From positions 1 to 38,050 of IMG/VR virus record IMGVR_UViG_3300021405_000036: 38,050 nucleotides of DNA. One strand, given 5' to 3'. The position numbers were made by a program, and so were the translations under genes. This DNA comes from a virus. Below the pieces are notes generated by a model that did not search any database, was not told the origin of the DNA, and saw nothing but the letters and a program-made list of their open reading frames with translations. Each line of letters starts with the position of its first letter. Position 1 is the first letter of the stretch. Below are positions 19,651 to 34,184 of this stretch, one piece after another.

Positions 19651-19968
19651 TTATTTTTCTGTGTCTGGTCTTAATTCCAATCTTAATGCATCCATTTGAT
19701 TTTGTATTCTGTGTGGCAATGAGATTAACTCCTGTTGCATGCAATTCATGCGCACTTCCAAATATCTTTTGAGGTAATCGCTTTTAGTATCATCTAAGTT
19801 TTTAGTATAAGCAAAGGTCATTTGTTGTATTTTTTTCTCAAATTCCACGCCATATTGGGCGCTCATCAGTATAAATTTACCTTCCATCTCGCGTAATTCG
19901 CTTTCAAAAACAGAAATGCGCTCTGACAAGGTGAACAGTTCTTTAATGCGTTTAAATAGTTTAATCAA
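19651..19968 (-). CDS. Coiled-coil hypothetical protein between terL and portal, 105 aa
   Basis: Almost entirely helical (RIKELFTLSERISVFESELREME, LKRYLEVRMNCMQQELISL). Its ATG overlaps the terL stop by 4 bases (ATGA), so it is translationally coupled to terminase. No motif is recognised. Position suggests a packaging or portal accessory role, unproven. Confidence 0.75.
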   Translation of the reverse strand: MIKLFKRIKELFTLSERISVFESELREMEGKFILMSAQYGVEFEKKIQQMTFAYTKNLDDTKSDYLKRYLEVRMNCMQQELISLPHRIQNQMDALRLELRPDTEK

Positions 19969-21488
19969 ATCAACATCCCTCGTGTATGCTCAGGTATTCG
20001 TGCTACCTGAAACCCACCATCAACCACATATTCCCCACCAAAAAAAGTAAGCATCAACGCATCACTTGTATCCGGTGACAATAATCCACGTTTCTTAGCA
20101 TCCTCTTTGCCCTCAATCTGCAATCGGTCACTAGAATCATACTTATATCCTAGGCCGCATAAATCAGTTTGGAGCTCATCGCTATCTGGTATTTCAACAG
20201 TCATGTCTTGTTTTAGCCACTCACCCATTCTATCCCAAAGCTCAGCCCGGCAATTTCTGTATTTAGATGGCTCTTCAGCCTTTGTTGCGACATTAACACC
20301 TAACACAATATGAGCATAGCCTAATTCGTGCAATCTATCGACAACTCCTGCACCTATGCCGATACAATCAATACACACACGCTTTGGTTGTTCTTTGTCA
20401 ATCATACGCTTCATGATGCCTGCTAGCTCCATGGTGCTTATATTGTAATGGGTTTCTAGATTGTATGCACGTCGTCCACGGCGGCGAATTATTGCCGTAC
20501 GGTCATCACCCATTCTTGCTGGGTCGCATCCTATAACTAAATTAGATTGACTATCCACGTGCGCTTTACGTGCTTTCTTCACATAATCCATTTGAATAAA
20601 CGTATCAGTAATCGAACTTAAGAACGCCTCATCATCGGTAAATGGATATTCTTGGCGAAATTTACGGCACTTTTGCTCATAGTCGCCCTTAAAGTCTTGA
20701 AGCTTAATACGACGCCAGTTTAAATGCCCAAGTTTAAGGCCATTATCACCAAATCGCTCAAGCCATTCAATCTCCTCATCTTGTGGCACAAAGCTTGCAT
20801 CATCAATACAGTATTCATCTTGCCAATACCAGGGCACAAAGATTGCTTGGTAGCGTGATTTACCATTCTTAGCCTCTTGCCAGTCCATGTAAAAATCATT
20901 ATCTATACCGTTAGCCGTAGATTCTTTGATGACCTCTGTATCATCCATCTCAGCCACTGTTTGTAGCAAGCCTAAGCTTATGCGGGCCGCGTCTTTGTAG
21001 AATGCATATTCTGATAAATGTAAATACTGATTGGTCATTGACCTGCCTATCTCAGCACTGCCCGCAGTTCCTACGCGATAACCTGAGCCAAGCTTCTCAT
21101 ACATCAACGTATTGTCATTCTTTTTATCAGGCTGGGGGAATAATGAGGATTCTAGGTTTTCACTATAGCGCTTTGTCATCTCAAAGATGGCGCGTGTGGC
21201 GTCTGAAAGGTGCGTTAATATAAATGCTTTCTTGCCGCGCTTGGTGACAATCTTATGAAAATAACGGGCTTGTACATAGGTTGATACCCCTTGTTGACGT
21301 CCTTTTAGGATTAGGGCGCGTATTTTACCTGTGGCTTTGTATTGATCTTCAAGACGTTCGTGGATGTAGTGTTGTGCGCGATTGAACTCAAAATGGCGTT
21401 CAGCACCTGACTTGTCGTGGATTATGAGGAAGTTCTTAGCAAATAGAGGCAATGATTTAAGTATGCGTATTAGCTTGTCTTCTGACAT
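19965..21488 (-). CDS. terL: Terminase large subunit, 507 aa
   Basis: DNA-packaging motor and nuclease. The ATPase P-loop is LKGRQQGVST (61-70), a GRQ-G-ST variant without the usual GK. The acidic site is YLHLSEYAFY (E160). The coupling motif is near KESTANG. The nuclease domain has VIGCDPARMGDDRTA, then DCIGIGAGVVDRL and the late DALML. Length is typical of P22-like TerL (499 residues). Portal follows after one small gene. TerS is unusually far away (23749-24105), separated by about 2.3 kb of small genes and an RNA-like element. Confidence 0.92.
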   Translation of the reverse strand: MSEDKLIRILKSLPLFAKNFLIIHDKSGAERHFEFNRAQHYIHERLEDQYKATGKIRALILKGRQQGVSTYVQARYFHKIVTKRGKKAFILTHLSDATRAIFEMTKRYSENLESSLFPQPDKKNDNTLMYEKLGSGYRVGTAGSAEIGRSMTNQYLHLSEYAFYKDAARISLGLLQTVAEMDDTEVIKESTANGIDNDFYMDWQEAKNGKSRYQAIFVPWYWQDEYCIDDASFVPQDEEIEWLERFGDNGLKLGHLNWRRIKLQDFKGDYEQKCRKFRQEYPFTDDEAFLSSITDTFIQMDYVKKARKAHVDSQSNLVIGCDPARMGDDRTAIIRRRGRRAYNLETHYNISTMELAGIMKRMIDKEQPKRVCIDCIGIGAGVVDRLHELGYAHIVLGVNVATKAEEPSKYRNCRAELWDRMGEWLKQDMTVEIPDSDELQTDLCGLGYKYDSSDRLQIEGKEDAKKRGLLSPDTSDALMLTFFGGEYVVDGGFQVARIPEHTRGMLI

Positions 21489-22189: not shown

Positions 22190-22414
22190 TTAATACTTCC
22201 TAATTTGCAGATATTTATGATTTAAATTCTTATCATTCAAAAATTCATCACATAATCTTGCAATATCCTCTACACCTTCACGGGGAATATTAATCTCTCC
22301 ATTATCAATGTCAATTATCATTTCTCTCGATCCTTTTATGCCATCCCAGAAAATTAATAAATTATATTTATCTTTAAAAGGATGGCGTATGCTACTAATT
22401 TTTAATGTTTTCAT
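22190..22414 (-). CDS. Small hypothetical protein downstream of structured RNA, 74 aa
   Basis: Begins MKTLKISSIRHPFKD (ATG 22414). A GTG three codons earlier is possible and would overlap the flank of the structured element. The ribosome site is poor (GTGGACAGA), so translation may depend on upstream RNA structure. The sequence NLLIFWDGIKGSREMIIDIDNG looks like a small beta fold, and the C-terminus is helical and basic. No family recognised. Confidence 0.62.
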   Translation of the reverse strand: MKTLKISSIRHPFKDKYNLLIFWDGIKGSREMIIDIDNGEINIPREGVEDIARLCDEFLNDKNLNHKYLQIRKY

Positions 22415-22424
22415 TCTGTCCACG

Positions 22425-22437
22425 CCGCGATTGTCAT
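22425..22437. repeat. 13-bp direct repeat, left flank of structured element
   Basis: CCGCGATTGTCAT on the plus strand, identical to 22761-22773. The nine bases CGATTGTCA also occur inverted inside the element at 22703-22711. Read on the minus strand, the element ends just before ATGA of this copy. Confidence 0.85.
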
Positions 22438-22760
22438 AATGAGTGAGGGCCTTTCACCCTCTTGTGTCTGACATCTTTTACTGCCGCCCCGCAGGTCATA
22501 TCTATGGCTCAATGACTTTGCCTCTCACTTAGTGCCTAGGTGAGTGAGTTAGGGGAAATCGGCTGGCCTCTCCCAGCGGTCACGAGCTTGCTTCACTATT
22601 GGACAATGTCGTTTAAGCCCTATATCCCCGTGAGCTAGGGATTCTATCTTTAGGAGCATCGATAGAACTTGCCGATACGAGATCGCTCCCGACACTATTA
22701 GGTGACAATCGTCCTGAATTTCACAGGACTTTCTAGCGTCCTAGGCGCGTGATGTCTGCA
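22438..22760 (-). ncRNA. Candidate structured non-coding RNA, ~323 nt, family unassigned
   Basis: No ORF is supported here, yet the segment is visibly GC-richer than its AT-rich neighbours and full of hairpins. Read on the minus strand these include GTCCTG/CAGGAC, ATCCC/GGGAT, GCTGG/CCAGC, CTCACT/AGTGAG, GTCAT/ATGAC, CTGC/GCAG and a final GAGGG/CCCTC. Long-range TAGGG/CCCTA pairing is also possible. Thirteen-base direct repeats flank it. An internal CGATTGTCA is complementary to both flanks. Large ornate phage RNAs, HEARO/omega-RNA elements (recalled to end beside ATGA, as here) and degenerate group I introns are candidates. I cannot assign one. The strand is chosen because neighbouring genes read leftward. 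Confidence 0.62.
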
Positions 22761-22773
22761 CCGCGATTGTCAT
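22761..22773. repeat. 13-bp direct repeat, right flank of structured element
   Basis: CCGCGATTGTCAT, second copy of the repeat at 22425-22437. It overlaps the stop region of the 56-residue gene (its TAA is immediately followed by TGACAATCG on the minus strand). This suggests the element arrived just past a stop codon. Confidence 0.85.
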
Positions 22774-22943
22774 TATTCTATAACTTTTAGTTCATCGGAT
22801 TGTTGTTCTATTATATCTGATAATAATTGGATTATTTTCTGACCGTGAATTTGTTTCATCATATCATTTGAATTTAATAAATCCTCACATCGTGTCCTGA
22901 CTATTGTCATCAACTGCATGATTTGTTTTTCACTGATTATCAT
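22773..22943 (-). CDS. Small helical protein, 56 aa
   Basis: Starts MIISEKQIMQLM at 22943, inside an 18-base repeat shared with the start of the next upstream gene. The whole sequence is predicted helical, with an acidic end (SDIIEQQSDELKVIE). The frame is open further upstream, but that would overlap the zinc-ribbon gene completely at its Cys-rich end. Function not recognised. Its stop abuts the structured RNA element. Confidence 0.6.
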   Translation of the reverse strand: MIISEKQIMQLMTIVRTRCEDLLNSNDMMKQIHGQKIIQLLSDIIEQQSDELKVIE

Positions 22944-23070
22944 TAAACCACTCCGCATTACATAATGAACAAAGGTCGGCATAACCAGGAATGTTTCCGT
23001 TTTCTAATTCATGAAATAGACGCCCACAGTTTACGCATTCAATTAGTTCATCTTTTTCACTGATTATCAT
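22930..23070 (-). CDS. Tiny zinc-ribbon protein, 46 aa
   Basis: Two CxxC knuckles, CVNC (residues 12-15) and CSLC (34-37), make a minimal zinc ribbon. It begins MIISEKDELIE, with the same six residues as the gene after it because the two starts share TTTTTCACTGATTATCAT on the plus strand. Its ATG overlaps the previous stop by 4 bases, and its stop overlaps the next gene by 14. A nucleic-acid-binding or accessory role is only a guess from the ribbon. Confidence 0.68.
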   Translation of the reverse strand: MIISEKDELIECVNCGRLFHELENGNIPGYADLCSLCNAEWFNDNQ

Positions 23071-23630: not shown

Positions 23631-23749
23631 CTTAAGAGCCAACACGCAAGAATAATATCTAAAATGGATACTGCAATCGCACCAATGTAAAACCCTTTAG
23701 CAATGTCAGGGTTTGTGAAGAAATCCCGGAGTTTAAGTTTTAAATTCAT
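23627..23749 (-). CDS. Small single-pass membrane protein, 40 aa
   Basis: MNLKLKLRDFFTNPDI, then a hydrophobic helix GFYIGAIAVSILDIILACWLL ending in Arg. The start overlaps the TerS stop (TAATG), and its stop overlaps the next start (ATGA). This tight coupling on both sides is the best evidence that this very short gene is real. It could be a lysis or superinfection-related membrane peptide. No family is recognised. Confidence 0.62.
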   Translation of the reverse strand: MNLKLKLRDFFTNPDIAKGFYIGAIAVSILDIILACWLLR

Positions 23750-24105
23750 TATTCAACCAATTTGTCTATAAGCTTTTCAACAATACTGTCTGCCACAGTC
23801 TTGGGCTCTTTATCTTCTTTGTAATCGTCACGAAAACGGTTTTTCATGGTAAACATCCAAGCAGTTGCAGAAAAATTCTTTATAGCTCCTGTAATACCTG
23901 ACTCGCCAATATCTTCCCAGCGTGCCTGTGCAGCATCTTTTCCCTTCTTTAATGCAACAGCAAACTCTGGGTGTATGTCGCGCCATTCGTAAATGGTTTC
24001 ACGACATACACCTAGATTAGTAGCAACGCGTGCAATACTTTTACCATCAGCTAATAACTGCTCAGCCTGAGCACACATTGATTTATTATATATTAGATCT
24101 GCCAT
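23749..24105 (-). CDS. Terminase small subunit-like, 118 aa
   Basis: The N-terminal helix-turn-helix (KSIARVATNLGVCRETIYEWRD) is followed by HPEFAVALKKGKDAAQARWED, a pattern typical of phage TerS DNA-recognition proteins. The middle GITGAIKNFSATAWMFTMKNRF also fits, with an acidic/amphipathic tail that would contact TerL. It would recognise the packaging site and hand DNA to TerL. It is about 2.3 kb upstream of terL rather than adjacent, with small genes and the RNA element between. Fairly sure of TerS. A plain HTH regulator is the alternative. Confidence 0.78.
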   Translation of the reverse strand: MADLIYNKSMCAQAEQLLADGKSIARVATNLGVCRETIYEWRDIHPEFAVALKKGKDAAQARWEDIGESGITGAIKNFSATAWMFTMKNRFRDDYKEDKEPKTVADSIVEKLIDKLVE

Positions 24106-33588: not shown

Positions 33589-33846
33589 ATGAGTAACGAT
33601 TTAGTAATTATTATGTGTCCACCATTATCAGATTACCCAGAACAACCCAAAGACCAATCACATTGCGAGATATATGATTGCCCTAGATGCAAGGGTAAAA
33701 TGTGGCTATCGGAAAAGAAGAAAGGTGTATTACTGTTTTCAGCTGTTGCTGGAAAGGAAATACTTCTTGCCTGTTATGATTGCATTAAGAGATTAGCACA
33801 AGAGGATCCCGAACTTTTTCATGACCATGAGATGGTACGATTATGA
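33589..33846 (+). CDS. Zinc-ribbon protein, 85 aa
   Basis: CEIYDCPRC (26-34) and CYDC near residue 62 form a treble-clef or ribbon zinc site. Between them, KGKMWLSEKKKGVLLFSAVAG is basic and beta-like. The C-terminus is acidic and helical. Starts MSNDLVIIMCPPL; an internal Met (MCPPL) is an alternative start. Overlaps the next gene by 4 bases. Nucleic-acid binding is possible; no family is recognised. Confidence 0.68.
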   Translation: MSNDLVIIMCPPLSDYPEQPKDQSHCEIYDCPRCKGKMWLSEKKKGVLLFSAVAGKEILLACYDCIKRLAQEDPELFHDHEMVRL

Positions 33847-34184
33847 ATGATTTTACTAAAGACGAGCTTGAAGAATTATATTTTTTTACATGCGTGCATA
33901 AAAATAGATATCAGGTTGAATATCCTCAAGAGCTATTAGATAAAATCCAATCTATGATTGATAACTATTGTGAGCATGAAGAAACTAATCATAATTATGC
34001 TTCTGTACAGCAAGTGAATATAGATTGGCCAATGAATATGGCGAACTCTATAGTCGGACAGATTCTTAACAATGAACATTGTAAAAAAGAATTCGCAAGA
34101 ATATTGGCAATTGCAGCATTAAAAATTGACGATGCACTAAAGCAGGAATATACTACAATGACGGTTTTTTCCCCAATTTTTTAG
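33843..34184 (+). CDS. Protein with FTKDELE N-terminal module, 113 aa
   Basis: Residues 1-45 (MNDFTKDELEELYFF ... LLDKIQSMIDNYCEHE) are the module also found on the opposite strand at 23067 and 23403. DNA coding for KIQSMIDNYCEH (33942-33977) matches 35 of 36 bases with 23268-23303. The rest, FARILAIAALKIDDALKQEYT, is helical and different in each relative. Its 3' end overlaps the converging HNH gene by 32 bases. Function unknown. Confidence 0.72.
   Translation: MNDFTKDELEELYFFTCVHKNRYQVEYPQELLDKIQSMIDNYCEHEETNHNYASVQQVNIDWPMNMANSIVGQILNNEHCKKEFARILAIAALKIDDALKQEYTTMTVFSPIF

Follow-up and report, generated by a model that had tools for sequence, protein, structure and literature searches.

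We identified a cluster of structured phage RNA genes on the minus strand of the window, by which we mean the whole 38,050-nucleotide stretch of viral DNA analyzed here. The cluster lies between terS (23749-24105) and terL (19965-21488), the location given by the initial annotation, and several small ORFs are also found between these two genes. It contains members of two RNA families, T1 and T2. We consider it probable that T1, a non-decoding tRNA mimic, and T2, an RNA with two pseudoknots, are phage RNAs freed by host tRNA-processing enzymes. Both structures, their conservation, their placement in tRNA arrays and among co-directional genes and, in a subset of members, an encoded CCA junction are directly supported. 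The parts of the cluster are as follows.

22773..22982, minus: 69-aa ORF, with its stop codon directly before T1
22698..22773, minus: T1 copy A, a reduced tRNA-like RNA of about 70 nt (best match of model R1 in the window)
Within 22698..22773, minus: acceptor-like stem of copy A (TGACAATCG/CGATTGTCA), then a D-arm-like hairpin
Within 22698..22773, minus: 4-bp mini-hairpin of copy A in the pseudoknot's place (from the fold)
Within 22698..22773, minus: T-arm of copy A, GTCCTG-TGAAATT-CAGGAC, then CCT
22761..22773, minus: first 13-bp repeat, made up of A, the 5' strand of the T1 closing stem and the linker
22703..22711, minus: internal antisense copy, the 3' strand of the T1 closing stem (from the fold and family covariation)
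About 22553..22699, minus: stretch of ~147 nt between T1 and T2, possibly a third RNA (weak, E 0.087)
22443..22552, minus: T2 RNA (from the R2 match, alignment and pair counts)
Within 22443..22552, minus: 5' hairpin H1 of T2 (CTCACTCA..TAAGTGAG)
Within 22443..22552, minus: H2 of T2, its loop GTCAT pairing with ATGAC (pseudoknot 1)
Within 22443..22552, minus: H3 of T2, CTGC..GCAG
Within 22443..22552, minus: T-arm-like 3' hairpin of T2, GAGGG-TGAAAGG-CCCTC
22416..22437, minus: 22-nt stub from the 5' end of a second T1 (ATGACAATCGCGGCGTGGACAG), breaking off within the P2 loop; it includes the second 13-bp repeat (22425-22437)
22190..22423, minus: 77-aa ORF (GTG 22423 or ATG 22414) immediately following the RNA cluster, with no PHROG match

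The sequence observations of the initial annotation are sound. The 13-mer CCGCGATTGTCAT occurs exactly at both 22761-22773 and 22425-22437, and the plus-strand copy of TGACAATCG at 22703-22711 is complementary to both. No gene-like frame spans 22425-22773 (the flanking ORFs stop at 22773 and begin at 22414/22423), and GC content is raised to 0.507, compared with 0.395 for the window, a level reached by only 1.3% of windows of the same size. The region is indeed structured, non-coding and leftward, but a strong fold of the whole stretch did not hold up, as minus-strand folding gave a z of only -1.34, matched by about one shuffle in nine. Strong folding is restricted to 22773-22700 (z -3.38). 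The 263 nt of 22438-22700 folded alone gave z -1.09, in a test to which the T2 pseudoknots are invisible.

What these observations had been taken to mean, a single mobile RNA of ~320 nt between target-site repeats, is wrong. The 13-mers are element sequence rather than flanks of an insertion, and are present in T1 members at unrelated sites. Nor does the RNA pair with its own insertion site: the internal complement is the other strand of the T1 stem, with compensatory changes across the family.

The window also encodes three small proteins, apparently paralogs, that begin with M(S/N)DFTK(E/D)ELE and lie in two separate parts of the genome: 23067-23402, 23403-23645 (minus) and 33843-34184 (plus).

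The tRNA-like T1 family

Relatives of TerL were collected as the starting set for the T1 search. At or near terL, several of them carry a segment with TGACAATCG at its start and, some 70-190 nt on, CGATTGTCA at its end; a T-arm-like hairpin immediately precedes the 3' strand of the stem. Stems of other sequence that are still complementary, GGTGGTTG/CGACCACC and GAAGACAG/CTGTCTTC, both occur in L030 and L031. Scanning the viral collection for the conserved hairpin CGNCGTGGACAGNGACACG returned at least 120 stretches. Among the matches listed, a stem of at least 6 bp adjoins the T-arm in 73 of the 107 unique P2-motif matches with enough flank, compared with 3-5 stems when upstream and downstream parts were exchanged between contigs. 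We found T1 on at least about 90 phage contigs, and aligned at least 113 matches from at least 95 sources. The sources are environmental phage contigs and a few contigs from bacterial metagenome-assembled genomes, some of them possibly prophage or phage.

A 39-member alignment of the closing stem, P2 and T-arm, nearly all of whose members had been chosen beforehand for having a T-arm and a stem of 6 bp or more, has 96.8% of cells paired and a covariation score of 0.634 (0.165 when shuffled and no more than 0.115 with slid partners), with double-sided changes at 15 of 19 pairs. Because of this pre-selection, the exchange of parts between contigs is the fairer test of the reality of T1. Applied to members outside the model, R1 gave E values of 3e-20 to 1e-8, and it found additional copies on the same contigs. 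Homologues were thus recovered for T1, as for T2 below, and the stems of both covary, an outcome that the initial annotation had proposed to look for.

In its predicted fold, the layout of T1 equals that of a tRNA. An acceptor-like stem of 7-8 bp is followed by a 2-nt linker, a 5-bp arm with an 8-nt loop, a variable part, a 5-bp arm with a 7-nt T-loop (UGCAAUU) and the stem again. A pseudoknot of variable size occupies the position that the anticodon arm and variable loop hold in a tRNA, and T1 therefore cannot decode. Both pseudoknot helices are 100% paired, with double-sided changes, in five sequences of the L010/L022 type (L010, L011, L072, L022 and L328). For 46 short members outside the terL clade, the best pseudoknot has a mean z only 1.0 above shuffles, a modest enrichment, so that the pseudoknot is suggested rather than demonstrated beyond the L010/L022 type. 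T1 members range from about 80 to 330 nt in length; sequence conservation is strongest in the D-arm-like and T-arm loops, and the stem and middle change fast.

Three long members of about 310-330 nt (L168:10262 and L262:9627, plus; L289:2259, minus) have a conserved inner insert in common, with GCGAACGASAGGCTGGAAAACGCCATAGGCGTG in two of them and a close version in the third. The sequence of this insert suggests a separate RNA domain carried within the tRNA-like frame. In L010:1997-2106 and L011:5076-5185 the displayed flanks are alike and the T-arm and 3' strand of T1 differ (GTGCAAGTCCGGTCGATTGTCA and GTGCAATTCCCGCCGATTGTCG, respectively), as if this part had been exchanged.

The best R1 match in the window, a sequence not included in the model, is at 22773-22698 on the minus strand (21 bits, E 5e-5, full scoring). 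It folds as a small cloverleaf (minimum free energy -27 kcal/mol, z -3.38) and has the closing stem, P2 and the T-arm beside the 3' strand, as a reduced member. Between P2 and the T-arm the pseudoknot is absent, and a 4-bp hairpin with a 4-nt loop is found there. Its P2 differs from that of the family, and a scan for this variant returned only L032 and apparent coding sequence. L032 is also the nearest relative, at the same genomic site (27.6 bits, E 6.5e-6). The stub ATGACAATCGCGGCGTGGACAG (22437-22416) equals the start of full T1 members such as L139 and ends inside the P2 loop; thus, the 13-bp repeat is a T1 stem strand plus linker, present twice. A second R1 match begins at the stub, where only the 5' part aligns convincingly and there is no real 3' half. 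Overall, the window T1 is reduced, with its pseudoknot lost, a second T1 is left only as the 22-nt stub, and T2 looks intact. Given its weak score and missing pseudoknot, the window T1 may be decaying.

Gain and loss of T1 are frequent, as only 8 of 35 related contigs carry it, at differing positions. The 69-aa gene is followed by T1 in the window, L022, L032 and L328, and has no T1 after it in L004, L125 and L175. A single 13-mer had been predicted for such empty orthologous sites; none of these three contains it. Target-site duplication was rejected on this ground and because the 13-mer is element sequence. The gap between terL and the portal gene is likewise variable, with T1 in L010 and L030 and none in L043 and others. 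In the otherwise empty terL-portal gap of L018 (7522-7580), TTGACAATCG...GTTGTCAATC may be a remnant of T1, and a T1 remnant of ~30 nt (TGATAATCGCGGCGTTGATCCGATTGTCA) lies directly before an intact T2 at L324:4060-4095.

T2 and the genomic company of both RNAs

The sequence before the stub in the window weakly matched the sequence directly before T1 in L231 and L241. A pattern derived from this match identified 20 contigs, most with one fixed 34-nt spacing; pattern matches in L313, L316, L319 and L325 look like chance or coding matches and were set aside. T2 occurs at about 20 loci and is an RNA of ~110-145 nt with four hairpins. H1 has a CCUAGG-like loop, the loop of H2 pairs with the strand before H3 (pseudoknot 1), the loop of H3 (CUGC..GCAG) pairs with the strand behind H3 to form the second pseudoknot, and H4 is a T-arm-like 3' hairpin. 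Across 17 sequences, the window included, 92.4% of cells are paired and none of 500 shuffles reaches the observed values. All pairs of pseudoknot 1 change on both sides in these 17 sequences, and both pseudoknots covary.

Model R2, which was built without the window, finds 22552-22443 on the minus strand with 63.3 bits (E 3.1e-15). No other single result argues as strongly that a conserved RNA is encoded in this stretch. The window T2 has the hairpins in the order H1-H2-H3-H4, with GTCAT and ATGAC complementary. The idea of a further tRNA-like element spanning the entire gap from T1 to the stub was dropped in favor of T2. Between the window T1 and T2, a 43-nt part near the 3' end of the intervening stretch is 77% like a sequence in L198 and L213, where the counterpart lies directly upstream of T1 and consists of AAGCAARCTCGTGAC, a hairpin and then TTCCCC. 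By this similarity, the intervening stretch is perhaps a third RNA.

Both RNAs keep company with tRNA genes. In L276 the order is tRNA-Thr, Asn, Pro, 4 nt, T1, 3 nt, tRNA-Met, Arg, and in L205 it is T1, 4 nt, tRNA-Gln, 14 nt, T1; T1 is 1 nt from a tRNA call in L151 and L265. All 24 T1-tRNA neighbor pairs within 500 nt are on the same strand. T2 often begins directly behind a tRNA (as in L314, L317 and L326), a T1 (L271 and L328, abutting in L271) or the stop codon of a gene, and L231 has tRNA-Tyr, T2 and T1 in a row. An encoded CCA directly precedes T2 in 6 of 15 scored members and also in L271 (7 of 16), giving the junction CCA|GAAYUC; over all loci, T2 junctions included, GAAYTCAV is preceded by CCA at 14 of 491 places. 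T1 overlaps same-strand ORFs less often than random placements (31% vs 68%) and more often lies within 150 nt after an ORF stop (62% vs 34%).

Two other tRNA-like sequences were noticed on these contigs. Right after terS in L011 (3129-3277), a canonical-looking T-arm (GGGTTCGAATCCC) and one more hairpin lie within the stem GAGACACG/CGTGTCTC, which ends in GCCA; the models miss this odd tRNA-like RNA. L037:5877-5976 is tRNA-like, with a canonical-looking anticodon arm, CTCGC-CTGTGAA-GCGAG (GTG), and a region of ~40 nt in the position of the D-arm; ARAGORN misses it. Rfam matches on contigs of phages carrying T1 or T2 include abiF RNA (L171:7662-7698 and L322:3893-3937, both minus) and int-alpA RNA (L003:5729-5797, minus).

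Proposed processing, alternative readings and known systems

The minimal substrate of RNase P consists of an acceptor stem with a T-arm stacked on it. In T1 the commonest signature letters are T at -1 (67 of 113), G1-C72 (61 of 113) and A at 73 (51 of 113), although the G1-C72/A73 signature is a trend and not a rule. From these features we infer that RNase P and the tRNA 3' machinery may excise T1 and T2. The phage RNA genes on the late-operon strand would be transcribed as one polycistronic transcript. Host RNase P would cut before T1 and the tRNA 3'-end machinery behind it, and these cuts would trim the transcript, releasing T1 and the 5' end of T2, in a manner akin to the tRNAs that punctuate mitochondrial transcripts. 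Only 8 of the 113 aligned T1 members are followed by an encoded CCA (in the alignment register used), which speaks against the generality of the predicted processing. Once released, the two RNAs might serve as decoy, scaffold or regulator. We also propose, tentatively and with less confidence than the release itself, that T1 and T2 are two new functional RNA classes acting as a pair, in which T1 captures host tRNA-handling enzymes (for processing, stability or counter-defense) and T2, freed by the same cleavage, serves as a pseudoknotted effector.

It seems rather unlikely that T1 and T2 are instead cis-acting elements, riboswitch-like or in translational control, of the following gene, for example terL or portal. 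T1 and T2 often lie 20-50 nt before a same-strand ORF, and for T1 the ORF is within 150 nt in 58 of 113 members, compared with 32% of random placements; the double pseudoknot of T2 resembles a ligand-binding architecture. However, the following gene varies widely (terL, portal, tRNA genes and small ORFs with no assigned function), copies are found inside tRNA arrays and in tandem, and T1 is missing from most close relatives. We regard as unlikely the suggestion that T1 acts as a decoy or inhibitor, mimicking tRNA against host tRNA-targeting defenses or tRNA-binding enzymes, with T2 as its partner RNA. Its tRNA-like frame, in which the two arm loops are most conserved, is consistent with this, as are the fast-changing stem and middle, the multiple copies and the patchy presence in related phages. 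Phage tRNAs have been proposed as a means of evading tRNA-targeting defenses (PMC10264068). As T1 has no anticodon loop, however, it cannot mimic the cut site of an anticodon nuclease.

It is very improbable that T1 is what remains of a decayed tRNA gene, with T2 arising as a by-product when tRNA arrays decay. The location in tRNA arrays, the reduced copy in the window and the best R1 score in the T4 stretch, which falls on a canonical class II tRNA-Ser (10.4 bits), fit such an origin, but decay cannot yield coordinated double-sided changes. Moreover, the P2 loop and T-loop are fixed across very different phages, and a pseudoknot is conserved at the position of the anticodon arm. One mobile, ornate HEARO-like RNA flanked by a 13-bp target-site duplication, as the identical 13-mers, the internal complement and the differing sites of T1 among phages might suggest, is hardly credible given the lack of an Rfam match, the identity of the 13-mer as element sequence and its absence from the empty sites.

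We favor the release of T1 and T2 by host enzymes as phage RNAs, and no known family could be assigned to either, as the initial annotation had allowed for by calling the RNA perhaps unassigned. Against Rfam, at curated and relaxed thresholds, T1 and T2 in the window and in members fall below every threshold. The covariance models of HEARO, group I introns, GOLLD, ROOL and tmRNA, all named in the initial annotation as candidates to search for, gave no match; the region also lies between complete ORFs and not inside a gene, as a group I intron would. ARAGORN called no tRNA or tmRNA genes in the window. BLAST searches of cultured phages, with the region or members as queries, gave either no match or one of 23 nt that lies within a gene and is due to chance, and no cultured phage with T1 or T2 was found in this search. 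Plasmid matches were scattered, short and mostly inside unrelated annotated genes, and pattern matches in L045 and L047, considered as members, look like coding sequence.

GOLLD and ROOL are structured non-coding RNAs that occur in phages and prophages, in many cases close to tRNA islands; tRNAs can lie within GOLLD linkers, and many GOLLDs exceed 800 nt (PMC12286853). They resemble T1 and T2 as structured phage RNAs near tRNA islands, but are much longer, with other sequences and folds. T4 rnaC and rnaD ('species 1' and 'species 2') are likewise two stable RNAs directly behind tRNA-Arg in a tRNA cluster, and rnaC ends in a T-arm, GGTTCGAATCC. Neither gave a meaningful R1 or R2 score, so the likeness is one of kind and position only. 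T1 shares with tmRNA and class II tRNA an acceptor-like stem, an adjoining T-arm and a D-side hairpin, and with tmRNA the replacement of the anticodon side by pseudoknots; it differs from canonical tRNA in having no anticodon arm and from tmRNA in having no tag reading frame. The last 37 nt of the L231 T2 align with Ocean-VII (RF03092) at GUA..AGGGAUC.GAGAGGG.GAA..AGCCCCUC (18.2 bits, E 0.002 on 141 nt; gathering score 53.5). Ocean-VII is without the further hairpin and pseudoknot parts of T2, and it gave no match for the window T2.

The source of Ocean-VII is reportedly a paper describing 224 motifs. In a literature search we found no description of T1 or T2 and no paper with their motif sequences. 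A large, uncurated catalogue from 2023 reportedly lists more than ten thousand candidate structured RNAs from viruses and phages, where T1 and T2 could be unnamed clusters. Since T4 rnaC/rnaD and GOLLD/ROOL are similar but do not match the models for membership, and since no description was found, we class T1 and T2 as new families within an already known general category, that of phage RNAs located in tRNA islands.

Knowledge of phage tRNA arrays goes back to the 1960s, and the stable RNAs C and D within the array of T4 are annotated merely as small stable RNAs. Two covarying families, present in many phages and interleaved with tRNAs, make function testable by comparison and expression. The results indicate that tRNA finders and Rfam overlook whole RNA genes in phage genomes. 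If T1 and T2 are indeed paired new classes, both would be frequent among environmental phages that have not been cultivated, and missing from RNA catalogues. T1 also provides a natural tRNA-like frame that tolerates inserts of roughly 30 to 270 nt, a tolerance that bears on substrate recognition by RNase P and other tRNA enzymes.
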